The position numbers were made by a program, and so were the translations under genes. Shown piece by piece: positions 37,301-47,086 of a stretch of DNA of 64,000 bases. Origin of the DNA: an uncultured Bacteroidales bacterium (GTDB taxonomy: Bacteria > Bacteroidota > Bacteroidia > Bacteroidales > Paludibacteraceae); contig ONIM01000004.1 in NCBI GenBank assembly GCA_900317885.1, positions 19,443-83,442 on the forward strand. The letters are read 5' to 3'. Position 1 is the first letter of the stretch. Each line of letters opens with the position of its first letter. The notes beneath the pieces were generated by a model. That model did no database searches. It was not told the DNA's origin and worked only from the letters and a program-made list of their open reading frames with translations.

Positions 37301-37347
37301 GATATCACCGTTAACTTCATTTTTCTTCACAAAACCCTTTGCGGCTG

Positions 37348-37377
37348 CAAAGGTACTGCTTTTTTTTGAGATATGCA
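37348..37377 (-). promoter_or_regulatory. Promoter of the small lipoprotein
   Basis: Minus-strand TTG (37375-37377), 19 bases, TACCTTTG (37348-37355). The leader is about 140 bases and contains the palindromic element. Confidence 0.72.
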
Positions 37378-37430: not shown

Positions 37431-40400
37431 TTACTCATCGAAAAATCCTAATTGTGAAATAGCTGTTAACATTCTATTGACGTAGGCGCTATCGGGCGCG
37501 GACCAGCGGAAGCCGAGACGAAGGAGGACAGCAGAGGTATAGCGGTTGTCGCGCTCGATCGTGACCGCCTTCTGGCCGTGGGTCATATCCTGATACGCCA
37601 AGAGAGCGGACATGAGGCTCGCTTTCTTCGGATCCTGACTGGCTTCGAGGATCGCTTGCCGGAACTCGTCCTCCTCGACGTAACGGATGGACTTACCGAT
37701 CTTCTCAAAGCCCGCAAGGATATCGCCCAAGAGGTCGGTATGGTTGTTGAAGGGCTGGAAGACATTACATTCTTTCGGCGTGGAGGCAAGCAGCACGACA
37801 GCTTTTGCCGTCTCGTTCACCGGCGAGAACTCCGCCGGCGAATCGTATTCGTCTATCGGGCAGCAGCCGAGGGTGGAGAACACTTTGAGACGCCCCATGT
37901 AACTGTTGGATTGGAAGTTCGCCTGGAACTCACCGTCGTAGCTACGCGCAGCAAGGTTGCCGACACGCATGATCTTAGCGTTCAGGCCGTGACGCGCGAC
38001 GGCATCGAGGATGACACGTTCGGCGAGGAACTTCGACCGCATATAGCGGTTATCGAGGAACTGACCGAAGTACAGCAAGCGTTCCGACAGTTCGGGTACC
38101 GCCTTGCCGTCACCGCGATCTACCCAAATCTCGCCGACGGAAGTGGTAGATATATGGATGAGTCGTGCGCCGGTCTTGAGACAGAACTCCACGCAGCGCT
38201 CTGCGCCGCCGATATTTACCTGCTCGATGTCATCGGTCTTGGAGAAGTGCTTGACGTTGGCTGCGCAGTTGAAGACGGTATCAATCAGACCGTCCTTCGG
38301 ACTGACAGAGATTTCGCTTGTGACATCGCCGTTGACGACGAAGAGGCGGGAACCGAAGAGCTCATCAAAACGTCGGTCGAAATAGTAGAAGAGCAAGTTA
38401 CGCAGACGTCGTTGCGCATCTTGCTGGTCTTTACCGCGAACAAGACAGGTGATGGTCTTGGCATCGGAGTCAATCAGCTCGCGCAGGACATGAATGCCGA
38501 GATAACCGGTAGCACCGGTGAGCAGCACGTTGCCTAAGTCCTGACGCTCGCCGCGGAGGAAAGTATTGAGGTTATTGCGCTGCAGAATCGCATCGATGCC
38601 GGAGTAATCGAAGTTATTTTCATCGGTTACGGGTGAGGGGTTACCGGTTACGGGTGCTTCGCCCGAGAGGAATTGTGCCAAGAGACGCGGCGTAGGATGG
38701 GTGAAGATATCGCCGTAGGCAACATGCTTACCGGCTTTGTCCGCTTCGATGATGACGCGGGTGACCATGAGGGACGTACCGCCGAGTTCAAAGAAGTTAT
38801 CCGTGGCACCTATCTTATCCTGATTGAGGATGGATGCAAAGATGTCGCAGAAGAGCCGCTCGTTGTCGTTAGCCGGTGCTACGTAGTCGCGGTCGGTGTC
38901 GGTGAGCTGCGGAGCAGGCAGCGCACGTTTGTTCACTTTCTGGTTCTGGTTCAGCGGAATGACGTCGATCTGCATGATCGAAGCCGGCACCATGTACGGC
39001 GGTTTGCGATCACGGATGAAGGCATTGAGTGCCTGGATGTCCATCTTGGTGTCGCTGACGATATAGGCAGCGATGAACTTACCTCCGTTGGGGTAATCAA
39101 AAGCCTGCACGGTAGCGTCGTTGATGCCGGGGAACTCGCGGATGACGGCTTCTACCTCTTTGAGTTCGATACGGAACCCGCGGATCTTGACCTGACCGTC
39201 CTGCCGACCGACAAACTGGATATTGCCGTCTGCGAGGTAACGCACGACGTCGCCGGTGCGATAGCAACGGAGATTATTCCAGTCGATATAGGTCTCGGCG
39301 GTCTTGTCGGGACGATTGAGGTAACCGCGGCTGACCTGCGGACCGGAAACAAGCAGCTCGCCTATAGCGCCTACGGGCACACGATGGAGGTCCTTATCAA
39401 CGATGAAGAGCCGGAAGTTATCCAGGGGTTTGCCGATCGGGATATTCTTCTCCTGCTCGTGTATCGGATAGGTCGTGGTGAAGATGGTACACTCGGTCGG
39501 ACCGTACGCGTTATGAAGCAGATAGTTAGCCGGCGGCGCGATGGTCGCAAGTTTCTCTCCTCCCACAGACAAGTGCTTGAGGGAGTGGTTGTCGCAGTTC
39601 TGCGCAAACTGATAGCCCACCTGGGTCGTCATGAAGGAGTGGGTGATGCCTTCCGCCTCGAAGTAATGATTGAGGTCCGGCAGGTTCAGACGGATATCTT
39701 CGCCGATGATATAGACGGCAGCTCCGCATGTGAGCGCCGGGTACATATCCATCATGTTCGCATCGAAGCCGTACGAAGCATATGCCGCCACTTTGTCTCC
39801 GGCATGGAGATCGTAGTAACGATGGTACCAATGACAGAACGCCACGAGATTGCGATGCTCGAGTTGGCAGCCTTTGGGCACGCCGGTGGAACCGGAGGTA
39901 TAGAGGAGGATGAATAAATCCGATGGGGAAGCCTCACCCCAACCCTCCCCTGAAGGGAAGGGAGTTTTGACTTCTGCTAACTCTTTGGTCAGGAGGACGG
40001 GGCCGGAGTATTCAAAAAAGCCCCTCTCGGCGGAGGCGGCCGTTCTCCCCGTTCCGTCGGGGAGACACTCCGCGTCGGCAATGAGGAGGGAAGCGGACGC
40101 ATCCTTCATCATGAAGTTCAGTCGTTCAGCCGGATAAGACGGGTCAAGCGGCTGGTAGGCACAACCGGCTTTGAGGGCAGCCAAGGAAGCGACTACCATC
40201 CATTCGGAGCGGTTGATGAGGATAGAAACGACAGGCTCGGAGCTTCGCTCATCTGAGATTGGAGATTGGAGATTGAGCACTTCGCAGATCCGTGCAGCGA
40301 TAGCGTCCGTGCGGGTGTCCACCTCTTTGTAGGTGAGGCGGACGTCGTGATAGACGACGGCGAGGTTATCGGGCGTCTCAGCCGCTTGTTTACGGAAGAG

Positions 40401-43385
40401 CGAGACGATAGTCTGGGTGTCGTCATAAGGCATGTCGGTCTGGTTGAAGGAGTCGAGGACGGCAGTCTGCGCTTCGTTGAGGAGCGAGATGGAACGCAGA
40501 GGTGCGGTGGTGTTTGCCGCAAAAGCCTGCACGGCGTTTGCCACCGACTGCGCGAGGTTGGTGATGAGCGCTTCGCTGTACCAGCCGTTGTCGTACTCGA
40601 CGGCAATAGAGGGCACGCCGTCCATGGGCATGATATAAAACGCGATCTTGAATTTCGGCACGTTCTGCTCCATGGTCTCGTCGGCGAAAACGGGTTTGCC
40701 GAAGACGGAGTAGGAGCTGAGCACGCCCATCTGGTAAGCGAACATGATCTCTGCCTTGAGGTCATAATCCGCTGCCACGCGTGCAAAGGGGTAGTCCTCG
40801 TGGGCGAGCGTTTGCTCGAAGGACTGCGCGTTCTCGCGGACGAACTCCTCAACCATCTGGTTCGCTATCTTCGTTGTCAGCGCAAGGGTGTTGACGAACA
40901 TACCCATGGTGTTGTTGACGCGGAGGTTGCTTCGTCCGTTGGAGATGGTAGTGATGCAGACATCATCTGTTCCTGCAAAACGCGCCAAGGAATAATAGAC
41001 TGCACTCAGCAGCACTGCCGCCGGCGTCACGCCTAATTGGGCCGCATATTTCTCTGCCGTAGGCATGTCGAAAGGTACGCAGACGCGTCCGTTCTCGCCC
41101 TGGGGGATGGCGTTGGTGAGGTCCGGTTGGATCTCGGTGACACTCTCGATGCCGGTGAGACGCTCGGCGAAGAAGGCCTCAGCAGCCTTGAAGGATTCGC
41201 CATTTTCTGCAGCTTTCTGCTCCGCCACGAACTGCGGATACGAGCACATCTCGGGTTCGATCTCTTTGCCTTCGAGCAGGTCGCATATCTCATGGATGAA
41301 GAGGTCGTACGAGGCACCGTCGCAAACGAGGTGGTGGATGTCGCTCAGGAGATAGAGGTGCTGCTCCGTGCGCACGATGACGAAACGGAAGAGCAGGTCT
41401 TTCTGCAGGTTGAACGGCTGTACGAACTCATGCTTGAAAGCGTCCATCTGCGCCTCTTCGAGTGCTTTCTCGGGTACGTCGATGGCTGCTTCGTTCATTT
41501 GTTGGGTGTCGATGGTCTGGATGACCTCGGCTTCCCGGGTGGCAAAATGCACGAAGAGTTCGGAGTGGTTGAGTACTGCCTTGCGCACCGCTTGCTGCAA
41601 TGCGTCGGTCTCTACGTCCAAAGGCATCTGAGTACAGATCGGCACGTTATAGAGTGTGGAGGTCGGGTTCTTCATGCACTCGAAATAGACGCCGAGTTGG
41701 GCGAAGCTCAAGCCTACCCCCGTCCCCTCCCTAAAAGGAGGGGTGGTTTGTGCGTCGCTTTCTCCCTTCCCTTTAGGGGAGGGTTGGGGAGAGGCTACTA
41801 ATTGCGTCAGTATCTCATTCTCGATGGCTTGGAGGGTGATGCCTTTGGTCATCTGTTTGGCATCGAGTTGGATGCCGAAACGCTTGTATATCTGGGTTGC
41901 TAACTTGATGGCAGCGATGGAAGAGAGACCCATGTAACGGAGGTCGGTCGTGATGCCGAACTCCTCCATGTTGACAATCTTCGCGATGATATCGTGCAGT
42001 TCTTGTTCGAGGACATTGAGCGGAGCCGCAGCCACAGCCTCCTCTACTTCGGGCTTGGGCGCCTCCGGCTTCGGCAGGGCACGTTTATCGACTTTCTGGT
42101 TCGGGTTGAGGGGTATAGCGTCAATCTGCATTGTCACCGCGGGCACCATGTACGGCGGTTTGCTGTCGCCGATGAAGGCATTGAGTTCGTCGATGTTGAT
42201 CTTCTCGTCGCTGACGACATAGGCAGCGATGAACTTACCTCCGTCGGGATAGTCGAAAGCCTGCACGGTAGCATCTTTGATGCCGGGGAACTCACGGATG
42301 ATGGCTTCGACCTCTTTTAGTTCGATACGGAACCCACGGATCTTCACCTGTCCGTCCCTTCTGCCGACGAACTCGATGTTTCCGTCCTCGCGGTAGTGAA
42401 CGATATCGCCGGTCTTGTAGCAACGCAGGCCGTTCCAATCGACGAAGACCTCTGCGGTCTTCTCGGGTTGGTTGAGGTATCCGAGCGACACCTGCGGTCC
42501 GGCTACATAGAGCTCGCCGTCCGTGCCGGTCGGTACTTCTTTGCCGTCCTGTCCCACGACGATGAGTCGCGTGCCGTTCGTATTGGCTTTGCCGATAGGT
42601 ATATTGGGCTCGTTCTGGGTCACGAAGAAACTGCTGACATAGACGGTACACTCCGTCGGACCGTAGCAGTTCATCAACTTATAAGAAGGCGGATCGAGGC
42701 TAATCAGTTTCTCGCCGCCCGTACCGAGCCACTGCAAGCCCGGGATGTCGGGGTAATTGAGCACGAGTTGCGTTGCCATCTGGGTGGTCATGAAGCAGTG
42801 GGTAATGTGCTCGTCTTGGATATATTGGTTGAGCCCCTCCAGGTCAAAACGGATCTCGTCGCCTACGATGCAGATGGTGGCGCCGGCTTTGACGCAGCAC
42901 CAGAGGTCCATCTGGAAGGCATCGAAGCCGTAACCGGCGTAGGTGGCGTACTTGCTTTGCGGAGTCAAGCCGATGGCCTGGACATGGAAATCAAGGAAGG
43001 CTAAGATATTCGCCTCGCTGAGCATGACGCCCTTGGGGATACCGGTGGTACCGGAGGTATAGAGCAGCACAAAAGCGTCGTCGCCGTCGTACTTGGAGGC
43101 ATCCTCCCGCATGTAGTTCAATCGCTCTTCGGGATAAGAGCCATCCAGCGGCATGGCGGTCAGACCTGCCTTGGCGATAGCGAGAGGCACGATGACCATC
43201 TGTTCGTTACGGGGCACGATGAACGCTGCCACTTTGTCGCCGCAACGGGTGACATACTGCGGATCGAGGGTGTCTGACAGGCGGTCCGCCTCCGCGAAAG
43301 TGATGCGTTTGTCACCGGCGATGCAGAAGATGTCATTCGGCCGCTCGGCTACGTGTTTTTTGAAGTATTCGATTAAGTGTTTCAT
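37431..43385 (-). CDS. Two-module nonribosomal peptide synthetase with terminal reductase (A-T-C-A-T-R)
   Basis: 1984 residues. A1 (~1-435): LLYTSGTTGIPKGVML, CYGPTE, ELYVAGPQVSLGYLN, YKTGD, GQVKIRGFRIE. T1 (~450-525): Ser in YMGLSSIAAI. C (~562-980): HHLVCDGASYD, complete. A2 (~1000-1480): LLYTSGSTGVPKG, NAYGPTECTIF, YRTGD. T2 (~1498-1568): FFELGGTSLMVTRV. R (~1600-1984): VLLTGATGYLGIHVL NAD(P)H site, STTSVGE and YMRSKFLAE catalytic Tyr/Lys. No TE, no starter C domain. Module 1 should load amino acid 1 with a free amine, module 2 adds amino acid 2, and R releases a dipeptide aldehyde. A1 lacks ~40 residues between its A2 and A3 motifs. At least five repeat insertions lie in linkers or loops. 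Substrates are not called. Confidence 0.92.
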   Translation of the reverse strand: MKHLIEYFKKHVAERPNDIFCIAGDKRITFAEADRLSDTLDPQYVTRCGDKVAAFIVPRNEQMVIVPLAIAKAGLTAMPLDGSYPEERLNYMREDASKYDGDDAFVLLYTSGTTGIPKGVMLSEANILAFLDFHVQAIGLTPQSKYATYAGYGFDAFQMDLWCCVKAGATICIVGDEIRFDLEGLNQYIQDEHITHCFMTTQMATQLVLNYPDIPGLQWLGTGGEKLISLDPPSYKLMNCYGPTECTVYVSSFFVTQNEPNIPIGKANTNGTRLIVVGQDGKEVPTGTDGELYVAGPQVSLGYLNQPEKTAEVFVDWNGLRCYKTGDIVHYREDGNIEFVGRRDGQVKIRGFRIELKEVEAIIREFPGIKDATVQAFDYPDGGKFIAAYVVSDEKINIDELNAFIGDSKPPYMVPAVTMQIDAIPLNPNQKVDKRALPKPEAPKPEVEEAVAAAPLNVLEQELHDIIAKIVNMEEFGITTDLRYMGLSSIAAIKLATQIYKRFGIQLDAKQMTKGITLQAIENEILTQLVASPQPSPKGKGESDAQTTPPFREGTGVGLSFAQLGVYFECMKNPTSTLYNVPICTQMPLDVETDALQQAVRKAVLNHSELFVHFATREAEVIQTIDTQQMNEAAIDVPEKALEEAQMDAFKHEFVQPFNLQKDLLFRFVIVRTEQHLYLLSDIHHLVCDGASYDLFIHEICDLLEGKEIEPEMCSYPQFVAEQKAAENGESFKAAEAFFAERLTGIESVTEIQPDLTNAIPQGENGRVCVPFDMPTAEKYAAQLGVTPAAVLLSAVYYSLARFAGTDDVCITTISNGRSNLRVNNTMGMFVNTLALTTKIANQMVEEFVRENAQSFEQTLAHEDYPFARVAADYDLKAEIMFAYQMGVLSSYSVFGKPVFADETMEQNVPKFKIAFYIMPMDGVPSIAVEYDNGWYSEALITNLAQSVANAVQAFAANTTAPLRSISLLNEAQTAVLDSFNQTDMPYDDTQTIVSLFRKQAAETPDNLAVVYHDVRLTYKEVDTRTDAIAARICEVLNLQSPISDERSSEPVVSILINRSEWMVVASLAALKAGCAYQPLDPSYPAERLNFMMKDASASLLIADAECLPDGTGRTAASAERGFFEYSGPVLLTKELAEVKTPFPSGEGWGEASPSDLFILLYTSGSTGVPKGCQLEHRNLVAFCHWYHRYYDLHAGDKVAAYASYGFDANMMDMYPALTCGAAVYIIGEDIRLNLPDLNHYFEAEGITHSFMTTQVGYQFAQNCDNHSLKHLSVGGEKLATIAPPANYLLHNAYGPTECTIFTTTYPIHEQEKNIPIGKPLDNFRLFIVDKDLHRVPVGAIGELLVSGPQVSRGYLNRPDKTAETYIDWNNLRCYRTGDVVRYLADGNIQFVGRQDGQVKIRGFRIELKEVEAVIREFPGINDATVQAFDYPNGGKFIAAYIVSDTKMDIQALNAFIRDRKPPYMVPASIMQIDVIPLNQNQKVNKRALPAPQLTDTDRDYVAPANDNERLFCDIFASILNQDKIGATDNFFELGGTSLMVTRVIIEADKAGKHVAYGDIFTHPTPRLLAQFLSGEAPVTGNPSPVTDENNFDYSGIDAILQRNNLNTFLRGERQDLGNVLLTGATGYLGIHVLRELIDSDAKTITCLVRGKDQQDAQRRLRNLLFYYFDRRFDELFGSRLFVVNGDVTSEISVSPKDGLIDTVFNCAANVKHFSKTDDIEQVNIGGAERCVEFCLKTGARLIHISTTSVGEIWVDRGDGKAVPELSERLLYFGQFLDNRYMRSKFLAERVILDAVARHGLNAKIMRVGNLAARSYDGEFQANFQSNSYMGRLKVFSTLGCCPIDEYDSPAEFSPVNETAKAVVLLASTPKECNVFQPFNNHTDLLGDILAGFEKIGKSIRYVEEDEFRQAILEASQDPKKASLMSALLAYQDMTHGQKAVTIERDNRYTSAVLLRLGFRWSAPDSAYVNRMLTAISQLGFFDE
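38625..38657. repeat. GGTTACGGGTGAGGGG repeat between T2 and R of the NRPS
   Basis: Two GGTTACGGGTG units flank AGGGGTTACC and encode APVTGNPSPVTDE. Copies of the same family occur at 43703-43729 (intergenic) and 44350-44385 (phosphatase gene). Confidence 0.75.
39929..39970. repeat. CCCTCCCCTGAAGGGAAGGG insertion in A2 of the NRPS
   Basis: Palindromic; encodes VKTPFPSGEGWGEASPS immediately before the A3 core motif. Confidence 0.75.
40021..40078. repeat. Second palindromic insertion in A2 of the NRPS
   Basis: CTCCCC, eight bases, GGGGAG, with a GGCGGAGGCGG flank. It encodes PDGTGRTAASAERGFF, which does not fit an adenylation domain. Confidence 0.65.
40250..40277. repeat. GAGATTGGAGATTGGAGATT tandem insertion in A2 of the NRPS
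   Basis: Three 8-base units encode NLQSPISDE; reverse-orientation relative of the rnhA insertion (1841-1882). Confidence 0.75.
41711..41796. repeat. Double palindromic insertion between T1 and C of the NRPS
   Basis: CCCCTCCCTAAAAGGAGGGG and CCCTTCCCTTTAGGGGAGGG follow each other and encode SPQPSPKGKGE and TPPFREGTGVGL in the T1-C linker. Confidence 0.8.
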
Positions 43386-43386
43386 T

Positions 43387-43689
43387 TTATTCTATCGTGA
43401 AAAGGTTATGAAAACCGCTCATGCGGAAGATATCGTCCACGTCCTCGTTGAGGTGGGTGATGCGAATCGAACCGCCTTTCGCCTCGGACTCGCGCTTGAG
43501 TTGCATGAAGAACCGCAAGCCGGCAGAAGAGATATACTCCAGCTGCTCACAATCGATCTCCAGCGCTTTGTCGGCCAGCGCCAACACTTGGTTCAGGTCC
43601 TCTACTTGGGTCGTGGTAACTGTCGTGTCGAGTTCGCCGATAAGGCAAACACGCGTCTCTTTGTCATTCGGAATAATGTTGATTTTCAT
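43387..43689 (-). CDS. STAS-domain anti-sigma-factor antagonist (RsbV-like)
   Basis: 100 residues from the ATG at 43689 (MKINIIPND); the frame extends to 43791, but that part is repeat-derived (RNPVTRNPL). STAS fold: RVCLIGELDTTVTTTQVEDL, and the phospho-acceptor Ser in LEIDCEQLEYISSAGLRFFMQL. In partner switching the dephosphorylated STAS protein binds the RsbW-type kinase. The stop is 1 base ahead of the NRPS ATG, so the two are tightly coupled. Confidence 0.9.
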   Translation of the reverse strand: MKINIIPNDKETRVCLIGELDTTVTTTQVEDLNQVLALADKALEIDCEQLEYISSAGLRFFMQLKRESEAKGGSIRITHLNEDVDDIFRMSGFHNLFTIE

Positions 43690-43702
43690 ATTGTGTAATT
43701 TT

Positions 43703-43729
43703 AAGGGGTTACGGGTTACGGGATTACGA
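43703..43729. repeat. GGTTACGGGTTACGGG intergenic repeat
   Basis: Between the RsbW-like and STAS genes. Same family as the insertions at 38625 and 44350. Confidence 0.65.
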
Positions 43730-44074
43730 ACTGATTTTCTTAACGAGGGTGAGGATGTTTTTGTCCTCGCTGCGCTCATAGTGTATCTCATCGACGAGTT
43801 GGCGGATGAGATGGATTCCCAGCCCTCCTACCTGTCTTTCGTCGGTCGCTTTGTCGTTGGGAATATGTGCCGTGGGGTCAAAGGCGATTCCGTCATCCGA
43901 TAACTGAATGCTGAATGCTGAATGCTGAATGCTGAGTACCATCTCTATCTCTGTCGCCCGGGAATAATGCAGAATATTCACGACCGCTTCTTCGGCTGCC
44001 ACCTCGAACTGCTTGAGGGCTTTCTTGCCGAGTCCGGCGCACATGCCGAAGGTATGTATTGTTCCTTTCAGCAC
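43724..44074 (-). CDS. RsbW-like anti-sigma / serine-kinase ATPase with internal repeat insertion
   Basis: 116 residues. HATPase_c signatures: Glu/Asn box in KQFEVAAEEAVVNILHYS, LSDDGIAFDPTAH, and GGLGIHLIRQLVDEIHYERSEDKNILTLVKK. A tandem GAATGCT repeat (43905-43935) encodes SIQHSAFSIQ directly before the DDG motif. The only start is GTG at 44074, just after an in-frame stop, and the domain lacks ~10-15 usual N-terminal residues, so the start region may be damaged. Expected to phosphorylate or bind the STAS protein. The phosphatase frame reads ~180 bases into it. Confidence 0.8.
   Translation of the reverse strand: MLKGTIHTFGMCAGLGKKALKQFEVAAEEAVVNILHYSRATEIEMVLSIQHSAFSIQLSDDGIAFDPTAHIPNDKATDERQVGGLGIHLIRQLVDEIHYERSEDKNILTLVKKISS
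43905..43935. repeat. GAATGCT tandem repeat inside the RsbW-like gene
   Basis: Four 7-base copies of TGAATGC in a row. Read in two frames they encode SIQHSAFSIQ (kinase) and QHSAFSIQHS (phosphatase tail). Confidence 0.8.
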
Positions 44075-44349
44075 ACGCCATTGTGAGGGGTCCTGTCTTG
44101 CGGATGGTCATGAGGGTGATATCATCCGTAGGTTCCGCTTTGCCCATGAAGCCTTTGATAGCGCCGTACAGGTCATCGCGAGTCGCCACGATCTCTGCCC
44201 ATCGCTCAAGTCCTAACATCTCCCGCTCGGGGTTACGGGCCTCGGTCACACCATCCGTATAAAGGACAAGGGTATCTCCTTCTCCGAGCATGCAACCTTG
44301 CTCCACGAACGAGTAATGTCCGTCAAAGCCCAGCGGGATATTCGGTTCA

Positions 44350-44385
44350 ACGGTGAGGGGTGAGGGGTTACCGGTTACGGGTGAG
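44350..44385. repeat. GGTTACGGGTGAG repeat inside the phosphatase gene
   Basis: Encodes YSPVTGNPSPLT; same family as 38625-38657. Confidence 0.7.
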
Positions 44386-44661
44386 TAGACAATCGGCGCG
44401 CAATGTCCGGCGTTGCAGTAAACCAACTCGCCCGTAGGGATGCGGAGGCGTCCGACAAAAGCTGTGACGAAAGTCAGGGAGGGGTTGTTCTCACTGAGGA
44501 CAGCGTTCATCTCCTCCATGATCTCTTTGGGTGAGTTAGCCCGCACGCCGGCAGCACGGAAGAGGTTCACCGCGGCACTCATGAAGATCGCCGCCGGCAC
44601 TCCTTTGCCGCTCACATCGCCGATGATGAACCATAACTCGTCTCCTTCGCGATGGAAGTCA

Positions 44662-44739
44662 AAGAGGTCTCCTCCGACTTCGCGCATCGGCACCAGGAGC
44701 AAGAGGTCTCCTCCGACTTCGCGCATCGGCACCAGGAGC
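44662..44739. repeat. Exact 39-bp tandem duplication in the phosphatase gene
   Basis: 44662-44700 and 44701-44739 are identical. The duplication keeps frame and repeats 13 residues. Perfect identity suggests a recent event or an assembly artefact. Confidence 0.9.
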
Positions 44740-45219
44740 GTTTGGAGCTCGATATCGCCGTCGCCTTGGGCTTTCTTCTTCTCGTTCTCGTCCTTCAGGA
44801 TACCCATCTGGATGTCATGGGCGATCTCCAGCTCGTGCGAGAGCACCTCTTTCTCCGTCTCCAGGCGTGCGTTCACTTGCTCGTCTCGCGTGATGCGACG
44901 AATCAAGAGTCCCACGACGAGGATACCTAATACAAACACGCTCAAGGGCAATAAGATACCTAAGCGGAGAGATTTGAGAATGTGGCTTTTCGGGATAGCC
45001 GTAACCATGCTGATATTAATCGGCTGCAGGGTCTTACGGGAGATGATCCAACTCTGGTCAAAACCATCCTTGGGTGCGCCATCGCTGGCAGCCAGGAGGG
45101 TTCCGTTGGAGCTATAAAGCATGAACACCGCCGCCTCAAAAGGCTTGAAATGATCCAAGAGTTGGTTGATCCATTTGAGACTGAAATCGATGCCAATGAC
45201 GCAAATCAGTTTTCCTTCT

Positions 45220-45669
45220 TCATCCCGCATCGTCCTTGCTTTGCGCCGCACCTTTGTACCACTCGCGCTCAAAATAATCATGGGCATCATCGCCTAAGAT
45301 ACCGGAGATGATGGTGTCCTGCGTACGATAGGTGGTCGGTTCATACCATTTCTCTTGGGGGAAATAGTACGGAGGAAAAGCCACATAACAGGCGTAGAAA
45401 GTAGGATAGCGGTTGAGTATCTCTTCCGTTTTGTGGGTAATCGTCCTCGGCTTCGACAGCTGTTTCTTCACTCCGTCCTCCAACTCAGCCCATGCTTCCA
45501 ACGCATCGTACAACTCAAAACGCAGCTTCTCTTCGGCGATCTGCATCTCCAGCTCCATCTTCTCCTGCAGACGGAACCGTGCCCGGCTGTAGGACACGTA
45601 CGACTGCACTCCCATGCCTAACAGGAGGAAGAGAGCCGCTAAAATATGTACGGACGCAAATCGTTTCAT
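45220..45669 (-). pseudogene. SpoIIE/RsbU-like phosphatase, 5' sensor fragment
   Basis: 149 residues: N-terminal membrane helix (VHILAALFLLLGMGVQSYVSYS), then the first part of a dCache-like extracytoplasmic sensor (PTFYACYVAFPPYYFPQEKWYEP, DYFEREWYKGA). The frame ends 8 codons later at SKDDAG. The expected W..PY.D...TYS.P segment of such sensors is absent, so a deletion seems to accompany the frameshift. With the downstream fragment it would give one sensor phosphatase. The start overlaps the transporter stop by 4 bases. Confidence 0.7.
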
Positions 45670-47030
45670 GGATTAAAGAGCCCGATTCCGTTCAAGAAGA
45701 TAAGAAGAATAGCTATCGGTACGATCCATCGGAGGGCGAAGACGAACGCCGGACGAAGCCATTGTTTGTAGCGCTTCTGACTATGCGGCACGAGGTCGTT
45801 GTCCTGGAACGGCATGAACCATCCGATGAACAGCGACATCGCTAATGCGCTAAACGGCATCATATAGTTCGTCACAAGGGTGTCGCTTAGATCAAAGAGG
45901 TTATGTCCGCATATCTGCAATCCGCTCCAGACGCCGGTCATCGACAGTATATAAAGCGTCACAAATATACAGATGACACCGGTTGCTATCAGCACGCTGT
46001 AATGCCTGTTGAGCTTGCCGCGACTCATCTCCATGATGCTGGCTACAATCACCTCCATCAGGGAGATCGTCGAGGTGAGCGCTGCGATGAACAGCAAAGC
46101 GAAGAAAACCACGCCGCTGAGCCATGCGAAAGACATATGCTGCAAGACTGCCGGCAGGACGACGAAGACTAACTGCGGACCTTCCGCCGGGTCAAAACCA
46201 AACGCAAACACCGCCGGGAAGATGATCACACCTGCCAGGACGGCTACCAAGGTATCGAGGAGGATGACTTGGAATGACGTCTTGGTCACATCCTGCTCTT
46301 TAGGCATATACGCGCCATAAGTGATCATCAGACCGAGACCCACCGAGAGGCTGAAAAAGCACTGACCGGCGGCTTCCATAAAGACCGAAGGCGTGATATG
46401 CGAGAAATCCGGATGGAAGAAGAACTTGAGTCCTTCTCCGCTGCCCTCTAACAGCAGCACGCGGACGACCATCAAACTCATCATAATCAGCAGAAGGGGC
46501 ATCAGAATCTTACTCAGCCGCTCGATACCGCTGCTCACACCGAACCACAGAATGGCGGCGGTGCACAACACCGGAATGATAGCGCAGATGATCATCTTCG
46601 GAGCATTGGTCATGTTCGCCGAGAAATGCGTGAGCAGCTCTTCCGTTCCCATGCCTGCGTACGAGTTAACGACCGCCTCATAGAGGTAGTTCACGCACCA
46701 GCCCGTCACCACGAAATAGAACCCCGTGAGGATCAGTACCGTAAGCGCCGACCACCATCCTAACCACTGCCAGCGGTTATTGCCGCTGATGGCGCGGAAA
46801 GCGGAGAAGGTCGATTGGCCCGCCTTGCGACCGATCAGCATCTCCGTCATCAAGAGCGGCATGCCGAAAAGAATAACGCATAGGAGGTACACTAACAAAA
46901 AAGCACCACCGCCGTTCTGACCTGCCTCGTACGGAAATTTCCAGATATTTCCTAAACCGATAGCACTGCCCGCGGCAGCTAAAATGACTCCTAACTTGGA
47001 ATTAAAACCCGTGTTTTTTGGCTGTTCCAT
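45666..47030 (-). CDS. NSS-family Na+-coupled amino-acid transporter
   Basis: About 454 residues, 11-12 membrane helices. The Na+/substrate site motif of helix 1 is clear (GSAIGLGNIWKFPYEAGQNGGGAFLLVYLL), as is GVSSGIERLSKILMPLLL of the central region. This family (LeuT, TnaT) imports neutral or aromatic amino acids with Na+. The ATG at 47030 (MEQPKNTG) follows the promoter at 47055-47086; the in-frame upstream start is inside the promoter. It overlaps the phosphatase and appears to be the first gene of the NRPS operon, so it may supply a substrate amino acid. Confidence 0.9.
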   Translation of the reverse strand: MEQPKNTGFNSKLGVILAAAGSAIGLGNIWKFPYEAGQNGGGAFLLVYLLCVILFGMPLLMTEMLIGRKAGQSTFSAFRAISGNNRWQWLGWWSALTVLILTGFYFVVTGWCVNYLYEAVVNSYAGMGTEELLTHFSANMTNAPKMIICAIIPVLCTAAILWFGVSSGIERLSKILMPLLLIMMSLMVVRVLLLEGSGEGLKFFFHPDFSHITPSVFMEAAGQCFFSLSVGLGLMITYGAYMPKEQDVTKTSFQVILLDTLVAVLAGVIIFPAVFAFGFDPAEGPQLVFVVLPAVLQHMSFAWLSGVVFFALLFIAALTSTISLMEVIVASIMEMSRGKLNRHYSVLIATGVICIFVTLYILSMTGVWSGLQICGHNLFDLSDTLVTNYMMPFSALAMSLFIGWFMPFQDNDLVPHSQKRYKQWLRPAFVFALRWIVPIAILLIFLNGIGLFNP

Positions 47031-47054: not shown

Positions 47055-47086
47055 CAAAGATACTGCTTTTTTTGCATTTATGCAAA
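47055..47086 (-). promoter_or_regulatory. Promoter of the transporter-partner switch-NRPS operon
   Basis: Minus-strand TTTG (47083-47086), 20 bases, TATCTTTG (47055-47062). It is the only promoter of this type seen upstream of the six genes. Confidence 0.78.

Follow-up and report, generated by a model that had tools for sequence, protein, structure and literature searches.

A recurrent pairing of reductase-ended peptide synthetases with partner-switch genes, and its possible action at the protein level

The closest described relative of the system considered here is a gene cluster of Methanobrevibacter ruminantium M1 (mru0066-0071), in which a nonribosomal peptide synthetase (NRPS) gene is flanked by two serine phosphatases, an anti-sigma factor antagonist and a MatE exporter, and for which sensing of the environment and control of NRPS expression were inferred (Leahy 2010, PMC2812497). 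It is the sole description of an NRPS clustered with such a switch among the papers listed in the literature searches for this work. Our subject is a comparable operon in a stretch of 64,000 nucleotides (nt), referred to throughout as the window, from an uncultured Bacteroidales bacterium of the Paludibacteraceae (GenBank assembly GCA_900317885.1, contig ONIM01000004.1, positions 19,443 to 83,442). Read on its minus strand from 47030 to 37431, the operon encodes an NSS-family amino-acid transporter, a broken sensor phosphatase/kinase gene present as three open reading frames (ORFs), a STAS protein and an NRPS with two adenylation-thiolation modules, one condensation domain and a terminal reductase (A-T-C-A-T-R).

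The three domain types of the RsbU-RsbW-RsbV and SpoIIE-SpoIIAB-SpoIIAA partner switches, with conserved active residues, are also those of the NRPS-linked switch. The pairing is real, recurrent and functional-looking, and a protein-level mechanism is favoured. We give about even chances to the interpretation that the operon unites a reductase-ended NRPS with its own partner switch, acting at the protein level on synthesis or export of the product.

Recurrence and exchange of the switch

A condensation domain match was present in 51 of the 250 family genomes scanned. From these we took the 27 loci whose match was strong, leaving aside a second strong match in genome G041 and the weaker ones, which were mostly in frames of about 400-700 aa. 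A phosphatase gene and a STAS gene lie beside the NRPS in 23 of these 27 loci, and in the other four the NRPS reaches the contig end. Other gene families were each found at four or fewer of the 27 loci. SpoIIE matches number 52 across the 23 NRPS genomes, about one per Mb, so that a SpoIIE neighbour within 5 kb would be expected by chance at about 1% of loci. Eleven of 20 same-genus genomes without the NRPS, drawn from the 199 without a condensation match, have no SpoIIE match at all.

A collection of species genomes was then scanned with an alignment of the reductase domain, and the best 80 of 491 relatives were kept; these came from records named Bacteroidales, Clostridia, Sporomusa, Acetobacterium, Methanobrevibacter and Ca. 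Methanofilum. The wider set comprised 115 loci with a reductase match above 90 bits, which after removal of 5 near-duplicates left 110 non-redundant loci. The TIGR01746 profile, run over 395 genomes of the phylum, was uninformative, with matches in every genome, mostly below cut-off. Neighbouring genes were searched with home-made hidden Markov models and phmmer at a cut of 20-25 bits, which very divergent STAS or PP2C genes could escape, and the two counts that follow include only loci with at least 2.4 kb of flank on both sides. Of the 50 close-clade loci, 47 have STAS together with phosphatase or kinase no more than 2.7 kb from the NRPS; among more distant relatives the combination is present at 9 of 15. 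In the 47 close-clade loci the nearest switch gene is never more than 2.1 kb from the NRPS, and in 26 it lies within 100 nt. No switch was found at any of 20 Bacteroidota NRPS loci that lie outside the clade, 18 from the order and 2 from the phylum, several of them clipped by contig ends. A sequence-only reading of the window, made without database searches, had proposed comparing relatives in which the NRPS does or does not accompany switch genes; the link holds in that comparison (47/50 close-clade loci, 0/20 outside the clade).

The pairing extends to Clostridia. Among 11 clostridial loci with a clade-type NRPS, STAS and phosphatase are present at L220, L222, L223 and L237 and a kinase only at L229; no switch was found at L221, L238 and L239, and none was seen at L224, L225 and L228, which are cut short. 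Nine clostridial NRPS loci lacking the clade reductase showed no switch. The pairing is also found on contigs filed as Methanobrevibacter (L194, with STAS alone at L196). The linkage between NRPS and switch is not due to chance, and it is repeated across many gut bacteria and in some methanogens.

The transporter genes are less constant: over the 110 loci, NSS transporters are near the NRPS at 11, MATE exporters at 18 and MATE-HATPase fusions at 10. We therefore regard the NSS transporter as a variable accessory and not as part of the core; the shared gene order expected from the sequence-only reading, with the amino-acid transporter in the operon, is not fixed. One close-clade genome (G934, locus L163) has two phosphatase genes on the contig of the NRPS, at a distance of about 11-15 kb. 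With 14 SpoIIE matches (one being weak) in 2.1 Mb, this genome shows an expansion of such sensors.

Switch proteins outside NRPS loci allowed the history of the pairing to be considered, using a tree of 82 proteins built by a quick method and with some long branches. All 15 RelA-linked proteins (see below) fall in one clade of 19, and the NRPS-linked ones in several clades. With one duplicate row discounted (O_L080_13535, identical to the N_L034 protein), at least four label changes are forced on well-supported branches, and a single origin of the NRPS-switch pair was rejected for this reason. NRPSs with a group 1 switch, the group of the window, are intermixed with those of group 2 in the reductase tree, and the switch tree places the two groups far apart. 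For this reason the simplest reading is that the NRPS lineage probably swapped its switch at least once yet retained one. Within both groups (18 and 24 loci) the reductase, phosphatase and STAS distances correlate (r 0.31-0.68); the weakest correlation, between reductase and STAS in group 2, was equalled in 56 of 2000 permutations.

The non-NRPS cassettes are themselves informative. A paralogous dCache-PP2C-HATPase and STAS cassette stands beside a small RelA/SpoT-type synthetase in 15 of the 16 complete non-NRPS cassettes examined (L059:5123-9537 plus 14 others among L060-L090). Genes for an APH-type phosphotransferase and a tyrosine-phosphatase-like protein (Y_phosphatase3) accompany most of these. 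The synthetase was named by Pfam at L059 and L198 and by similarity at the other loci. Partner switches in this lineage therefore accompany enzymes, and the RelA-linked switch possibly controls alarmone-like synthesis. One intact RelA-type cassette, L059, is present in the window genome. In the sixteenth cassette (L087) the STAS domain is fused to the APH-type phosphotransferase (L087:4738-5934), and no STAS was found beside the fused sensor gene at L061, L066 and L075.

The switch and the operon in the window

In the closest intact relatives (for example L037, L038, L041, L056 and L120) the sensor is a single dCache-PP2C-HATPase gene of about 670-725 aa from stop to stop, in which a membrane anchor is followed by a dCache/PDC sensor, a PP2C/SpoIIE phosphatase and an RsbW-like kinase. 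Aligned to these, the three ORFs between transporter and STAS in the window are pieces of one such gene (Table 1). As assembled, about 20 residues of the sensor domain are missing and the frame changes, a perfect 39-bp tandem duplication that is absent from four aligned relatives covers the GGD motif of the phosphatase, and residues are missing again, with a further change of frame, between phosphatase and kinase. Across the 70 clade loci with phosphatase or kinase, the two are one ORF in 52 and separate ORFs in 7 (window included), with phosphatase only in 6 and kinase only in 5, some of these being clipped by contig ends. We rejected a separate kinase gene in the window, since the kinase is fused to the phosphatase in the closest relatives and in 52 of the 70 loci.

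The breaks may be a real lesion or a fault of metagenome assembly. An assembly cause is possible because part of the NRPS is present again in the same bin, in diverged form, on a 3.5-kb contig (L002; G000 contig C40); this copy is likely to be a strain variant. The STAS and NRPS genes of the window are intact. The STAS protein most likely starts at 43689 (101 aa) rather than at 43791.

The residues on which such a switch would depend are strongly conserved. The serine which we take to be phosphorylated, its alignment column having been assigned from the SpoIIAA/RsbV motif, is kept in 70 of 70 aligned STAS proteins. All five metal-binding Asp of PP2C are kept in 57 of 57 NRPS-linked relatives (the window copy being broken as assembled), and the N-box Asn, G1 Gly and G2 Gly of the kinase in all 51 rows with a letter at those positions, 6 others having gaps; these PP2C and HATPase counts were taken from alignment columns. 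Judged by sequence, the features of an RsbU/RsbW/RsbV-type switch are present: a PP2C/SpoIIE phosphatase, a GHKL kinase and a STAS protein with a phosphorylatable Ser.

The sensor of L120, modelled with a predicted local distance difference test score (pLDDT) of 91, matches dCache receptors. Its top structure match is a histidine-kinase sensor for which no ligand is named; next come receptors that bind histamine, ethanolamine, putrescine and branched-chain amino acids, and a uracil receptor ranks lower. The amino-acid-binding type (dCache_1AA) is recognized by an R-x-W-Y motif and a further Tyr and Asp of the pocket (PMC10104139). R-x-W-Y is present in 17 of 18 group-1 sensors, 2 of 39 other NRPS-linked sensors and none of 24 others; the further Tyr and Asp are found by eye at matching spacing, the upstream Tyr having no clear match. 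The window copy lacks part of this pocket. The ligand in this lineage is probably an amino acid or amine.

All operon proteins have Pfam matches of the expected kind: SNF/NSS, SpoIIE, HATPase_c_2 and STAS, and in the NRPS AMP-binding, PP-binding, Condensation and NAD_binding_4. The STAS stop codon (43389-43387) ends 1 base short of the NRPS ATG (43385). The promoter match, perfect for TTTG-N20-TAnnTTTG, ends 24 bases upstream of the NSS ATG (47030) and is the sole one of Bacteroidetes type on the operon strand in or just upstream of the operon; a scan with this pattern found no further match within 37431-47030. Since the window holds 10 such matches against 0.52 (standard deviation 0.64) in shuffled sequence, we consider it a genuine Bacteroidetes-type match. 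A scan for sigma-70-type promoters gave nothing above chance in the window (9 observed, 12.2 expected) and was dropped as evidence. A terminator-like hairpin lies 3' of the NRPS; it is weak and was called by consensus alone. The sequence-only reading had correctly given the gene order, with all genes on the minus strand, the single base between STAS stop and NRPS start, and the sole consensus promoter. Its count of six genes was wrong: the phosphatase that it described as broken is indeed so as assembled, and the RsbW-like kinase that it took for a separate gene belongs to the same gene, three ORFs in all.

Table 1. Features of the NRPS operon and its flanks in the window
Feature	Position	Strand	Evidence
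Bacteroidetes-type promoter match	47055..47086	(-)	10 in window vs 0.52 expected; no other inside 37431-47030
NSS-family (SNF) sodium:amino-acid transporter; accessory, not conserved	45666..47030	(-)	Pfam PF00209; NSS at 11/110 clade NRPS loci
Sensor gene piece 1: membrane anchor and part of dCache/PDC sensor	45220..45669	(-)	PF22673; alignment to intact relatives
Sensor gene piece 2: sensor end, transmembrane segment, PP2C/SpoIIE phosphatase	43893..45290	(-)	PF07228 E 7.5e-44; alignment
Perfect 2 x 39-bp tandem duplication over phosphatase GGD metal motif	44662..44739	(-)	Not present in four aligned relatives
Sensor gene piece 3: RsbW-like HATPase_c_2 kinase domain	43724..44074	(-)	PF13581 E 2.4e-21; fused to phosphatase in closest relatives
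STAS protein, anti-sigma-antagonist type; presumed phosphorylatable Ser in YISSAGL	43387..43689	(-)	PF01740
Two-module NRPS A-T-C-A-T-R, 1984 aa, terminal thioester reductase	37431..43385	(-)	ORF list, Pfam
Terminator-like hairpin, weak	37336..37353	(-)	Consensus only

By Pfam, the NRPS ends in a reductase as do NRPSs of the dipeptide-aldehyde type, and from this architecture its product is likely to be a dipeptide aldehyde and the cyclised pyrazinone. Its two adenylation domains share a 300-bp stretch with 84% identity (38917-39216 and 42073-42372), which suggests recombination between the modules. The first of them has, at 43050-43136 and by eye in translation, about 50 residues fewer between YPEERL and YTSGTTG than the second. 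The operon further contains dispersed GGGTTACGGGT-type repeats inside or between its coding frames (38619-38656, 43687-43724 and 44346-44383) and a C-rich palindrome at 41724-41743.

Possible targets of the switch

MATE exporters with an RsbW-like C-terminal tail, recognized by length and alignment, stand beside distant NRPS relatives at 10 of the 110 loci, and four more Clostridia loci carry a MATE-HATPase fusion (L220-L223); the contigs concerned are filed as Bacteroidales, Clostridia and methanogens. Pfam finds HATPase_c_2 in six of seven NRPS-adjacent tails at E <= 0.01, one under the curated cut-off. The tail of L171, which has no kinase domain by Pfam, was modelled at a mean pLDDT of 83, with most of the core above 90, and all 18 of its Foldseek matches at E <= 0.001 were SpoIIAB, RsbW or UsfX-type entries, 14 of them structures solved as complexes with a STAS antagonist. 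The tail is predicted on this basis to have an RsbW-like fold. In several MATE tails the N-box Asn or G2 glycines are lost. Such a tail is a possible docking site for STAS on the exporter. Genes with both a MATE and an RsbW-like domain are found at L113:13637-15451, L171:11113-12864, L173:5960-7750 and L194:11116-12855.

In the mechanism that we propose, the dCache membrane protein would sense an external ligand; its cytoplasmic PP2C domain would dephosphorylate, and its RsbW-like domain phosphorylate, the STAS protein on the conserved Ser; and the phosphorylation state of STAS would set the output of product through binding of a pathway protein, either the NRPS or the exporter, the latter being favoured where the MATE protein has an RsbW-like tail. 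The class of ligand, the direction of the switch and the protein bound by STAS are the steps that we infer. Protein-level control had already been raised in the sequence-only reading. The RsbW-like tail of MATE exporters found next to related NRPSs makes it the best reading; in some relatives the exporter is as good a candidate for the STAS target as the NRPS. A narrower formulation, in which phospho-controlled STAS directly gates the NRPS and/or the exporter and MATE proteins have evolved an RsbW-like docking tail, in gut bacteria and in methanogenic archaea, we put a little below even.

Known partner switches mostly control transcription, and the switch could likewise act on operon transcription by way of a regulator encoded elsewhere (a sigma factor, an anti-sigma factor or another), being inherited together with the NRPS as a cluster-situated regulator. 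With one promoter upstream of the window operon, autoregulation would be simple, and for M. ruminantium it was control of NRPS expression that was proposed (Leahy 2010, PMC2812497). We nevertheless regard this as rather unlikely. No sigma factor is linked to the NRPS loci, as the sequence-only reading had noted for the operon; in the window genome, which is 89% complete, Sigma70_r3 matches once and no more than two HATPase_c_2 proteins exceed the cut-off. No regulator gene is found beside the NRPS in more than four of the 27 family loci, and an RsbW-like exporter tail hardly fits pure control of transcription. The pairing moreover occurs on contigs filed as Methanobrevibacter (L194; STAS alone at L196), and archaea are not known to have bacterial sigma factors. 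STAS might instead gate the exporter only, docking on the MATE-HATPase tail, with a target elsewhere or a vestigial switch at loci with a plain MATE or NSS exporter. The fusions at 10 of 110 loci and at L220-L223, the resemblance of the modelled tail to SpoIIAB/RsbW and the erosion of catalytic features in some tails, as for a docking domain, all speak for this; most close-clade loci, including the window, keep the switch without such a tail and the window genome has none, which makes an exporter-only role improbable. Finally, adjacency might be fortuitous, or a selfish-cluster linkage without regulatory coupling, as nine adequately flanked clade members without a switch and the broken sensor gene of the window could suggest. 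Set against a switch at 47 of 50 close-clade loci, varied gene orders and orientations, its apparent replacement and invariant catalytic residues, this is very hard to credit.

Several observations weigh against protein-level control by a dedicated switch. The window's own sensor gene is broken as assembled, and the switch in that strain may be stuck. Its genome has no MATE-HATPase fusion, so docking on an exporter is not directly applicable to it and the partner there would therefore be the NRPS, the transporter or something else. At four MATE-HATPase loci (L148, L171, L174 and L221) no STAS or phosphatase was found in the fetched flank. Adequately flanked loci without the pairing are L121, L151 and L163 in the close clade and L172, L177, L179, L182, L189 and L195 in the distant group, and STAS with phosphatase is seen at only 4 of the 11 clostridial clade-type loci. 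In G671 and G875 the clade NRPS is split over contigs and no switch is seen on the visible sides (L093, L095, L096 and L114, with flanks too short to enter the counts). Output may also be transcriptional, through an unlinked partner. The observations themselves comprise the domains, their layout in the operon, the conserved active residues, the clade-wide linkage, the probable replacement of the switch and the predicted RsbW-like fold of the MATE tail.

Comparison with described systems

The sequence-only reading did not know such an arrangement to be described. This is right only in part, as the pairing was partly anticipated in one genome, that of M. ruminantium, in 2010 (PMC2812497). That account concerns one archaeal genome and does not claim generality, and in the part of it available to us neither an RsbW-like MATE tail nor a protein-level target is proposed. 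Among the papers listed in searches on partner switches combined with an NRPS or exporter we found no post-translational control of an NRPS by a partner switch; an earlier mention is possible. A rumen survey that counts thousands of NRPS clusters (PMC8241843) has no occurrence of the term 'anti-sigma' in the main text, by term search.

A terminal reductase would be expected to give a product ending in an aldehyde. NRPS products of this kind, dipeptide aldehydes and pyrazinones such as ruminopeptin, are known from gut anaerobes, and regulation is not discussed in the available part of the source (PMC12327764). A conserved cassette leading from sensor to switch to NRPS would, if the proposed mechanism is correct, offer a means of activating such clusters, and in the MATE tail STAS proteins have a sharp, testable candidate binding partner.

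Indigoidine is made by an NRPS. In Vogesella indigofera its production is controlled by an RsbW-like protein of the TciK-TciR system, for which a target other than a sigma factor is considered by the authors (PMC12826045). TciR differs from the switch described here in being a REC-RsbW response regulator, found by genetics as part of a two-component system and not of a linked STAS cassette; the same authors report no RsbV/STAS homologue in that genome. In SypE-SypA of Vibrio fischeri, one protein with kinase and phosphatase acts on a stand-alone STAS protein whose output possibly involves a post-transcriptional mechanism, a likeness to the NRPS-linked switch (PMC8256260, PMC12826045). SypE, however, carries a REC domain and is concerned with biofilm genes, whereas the NRPS-linked switch has a fused dCache sensor and forms a cassette with the NRPS. 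In comparison with RsbU-RsbW-RsbV and SpoIIE, the NRPS-linked switch has no linked sigma factor, consists mostly of a fused phosphatase-kinase membrane sensor and is linked to an enzyme, so that, if our reading is correct, the target of this partner switch would be the synthesis and export of a secondary metabolite and not a sigma factor.

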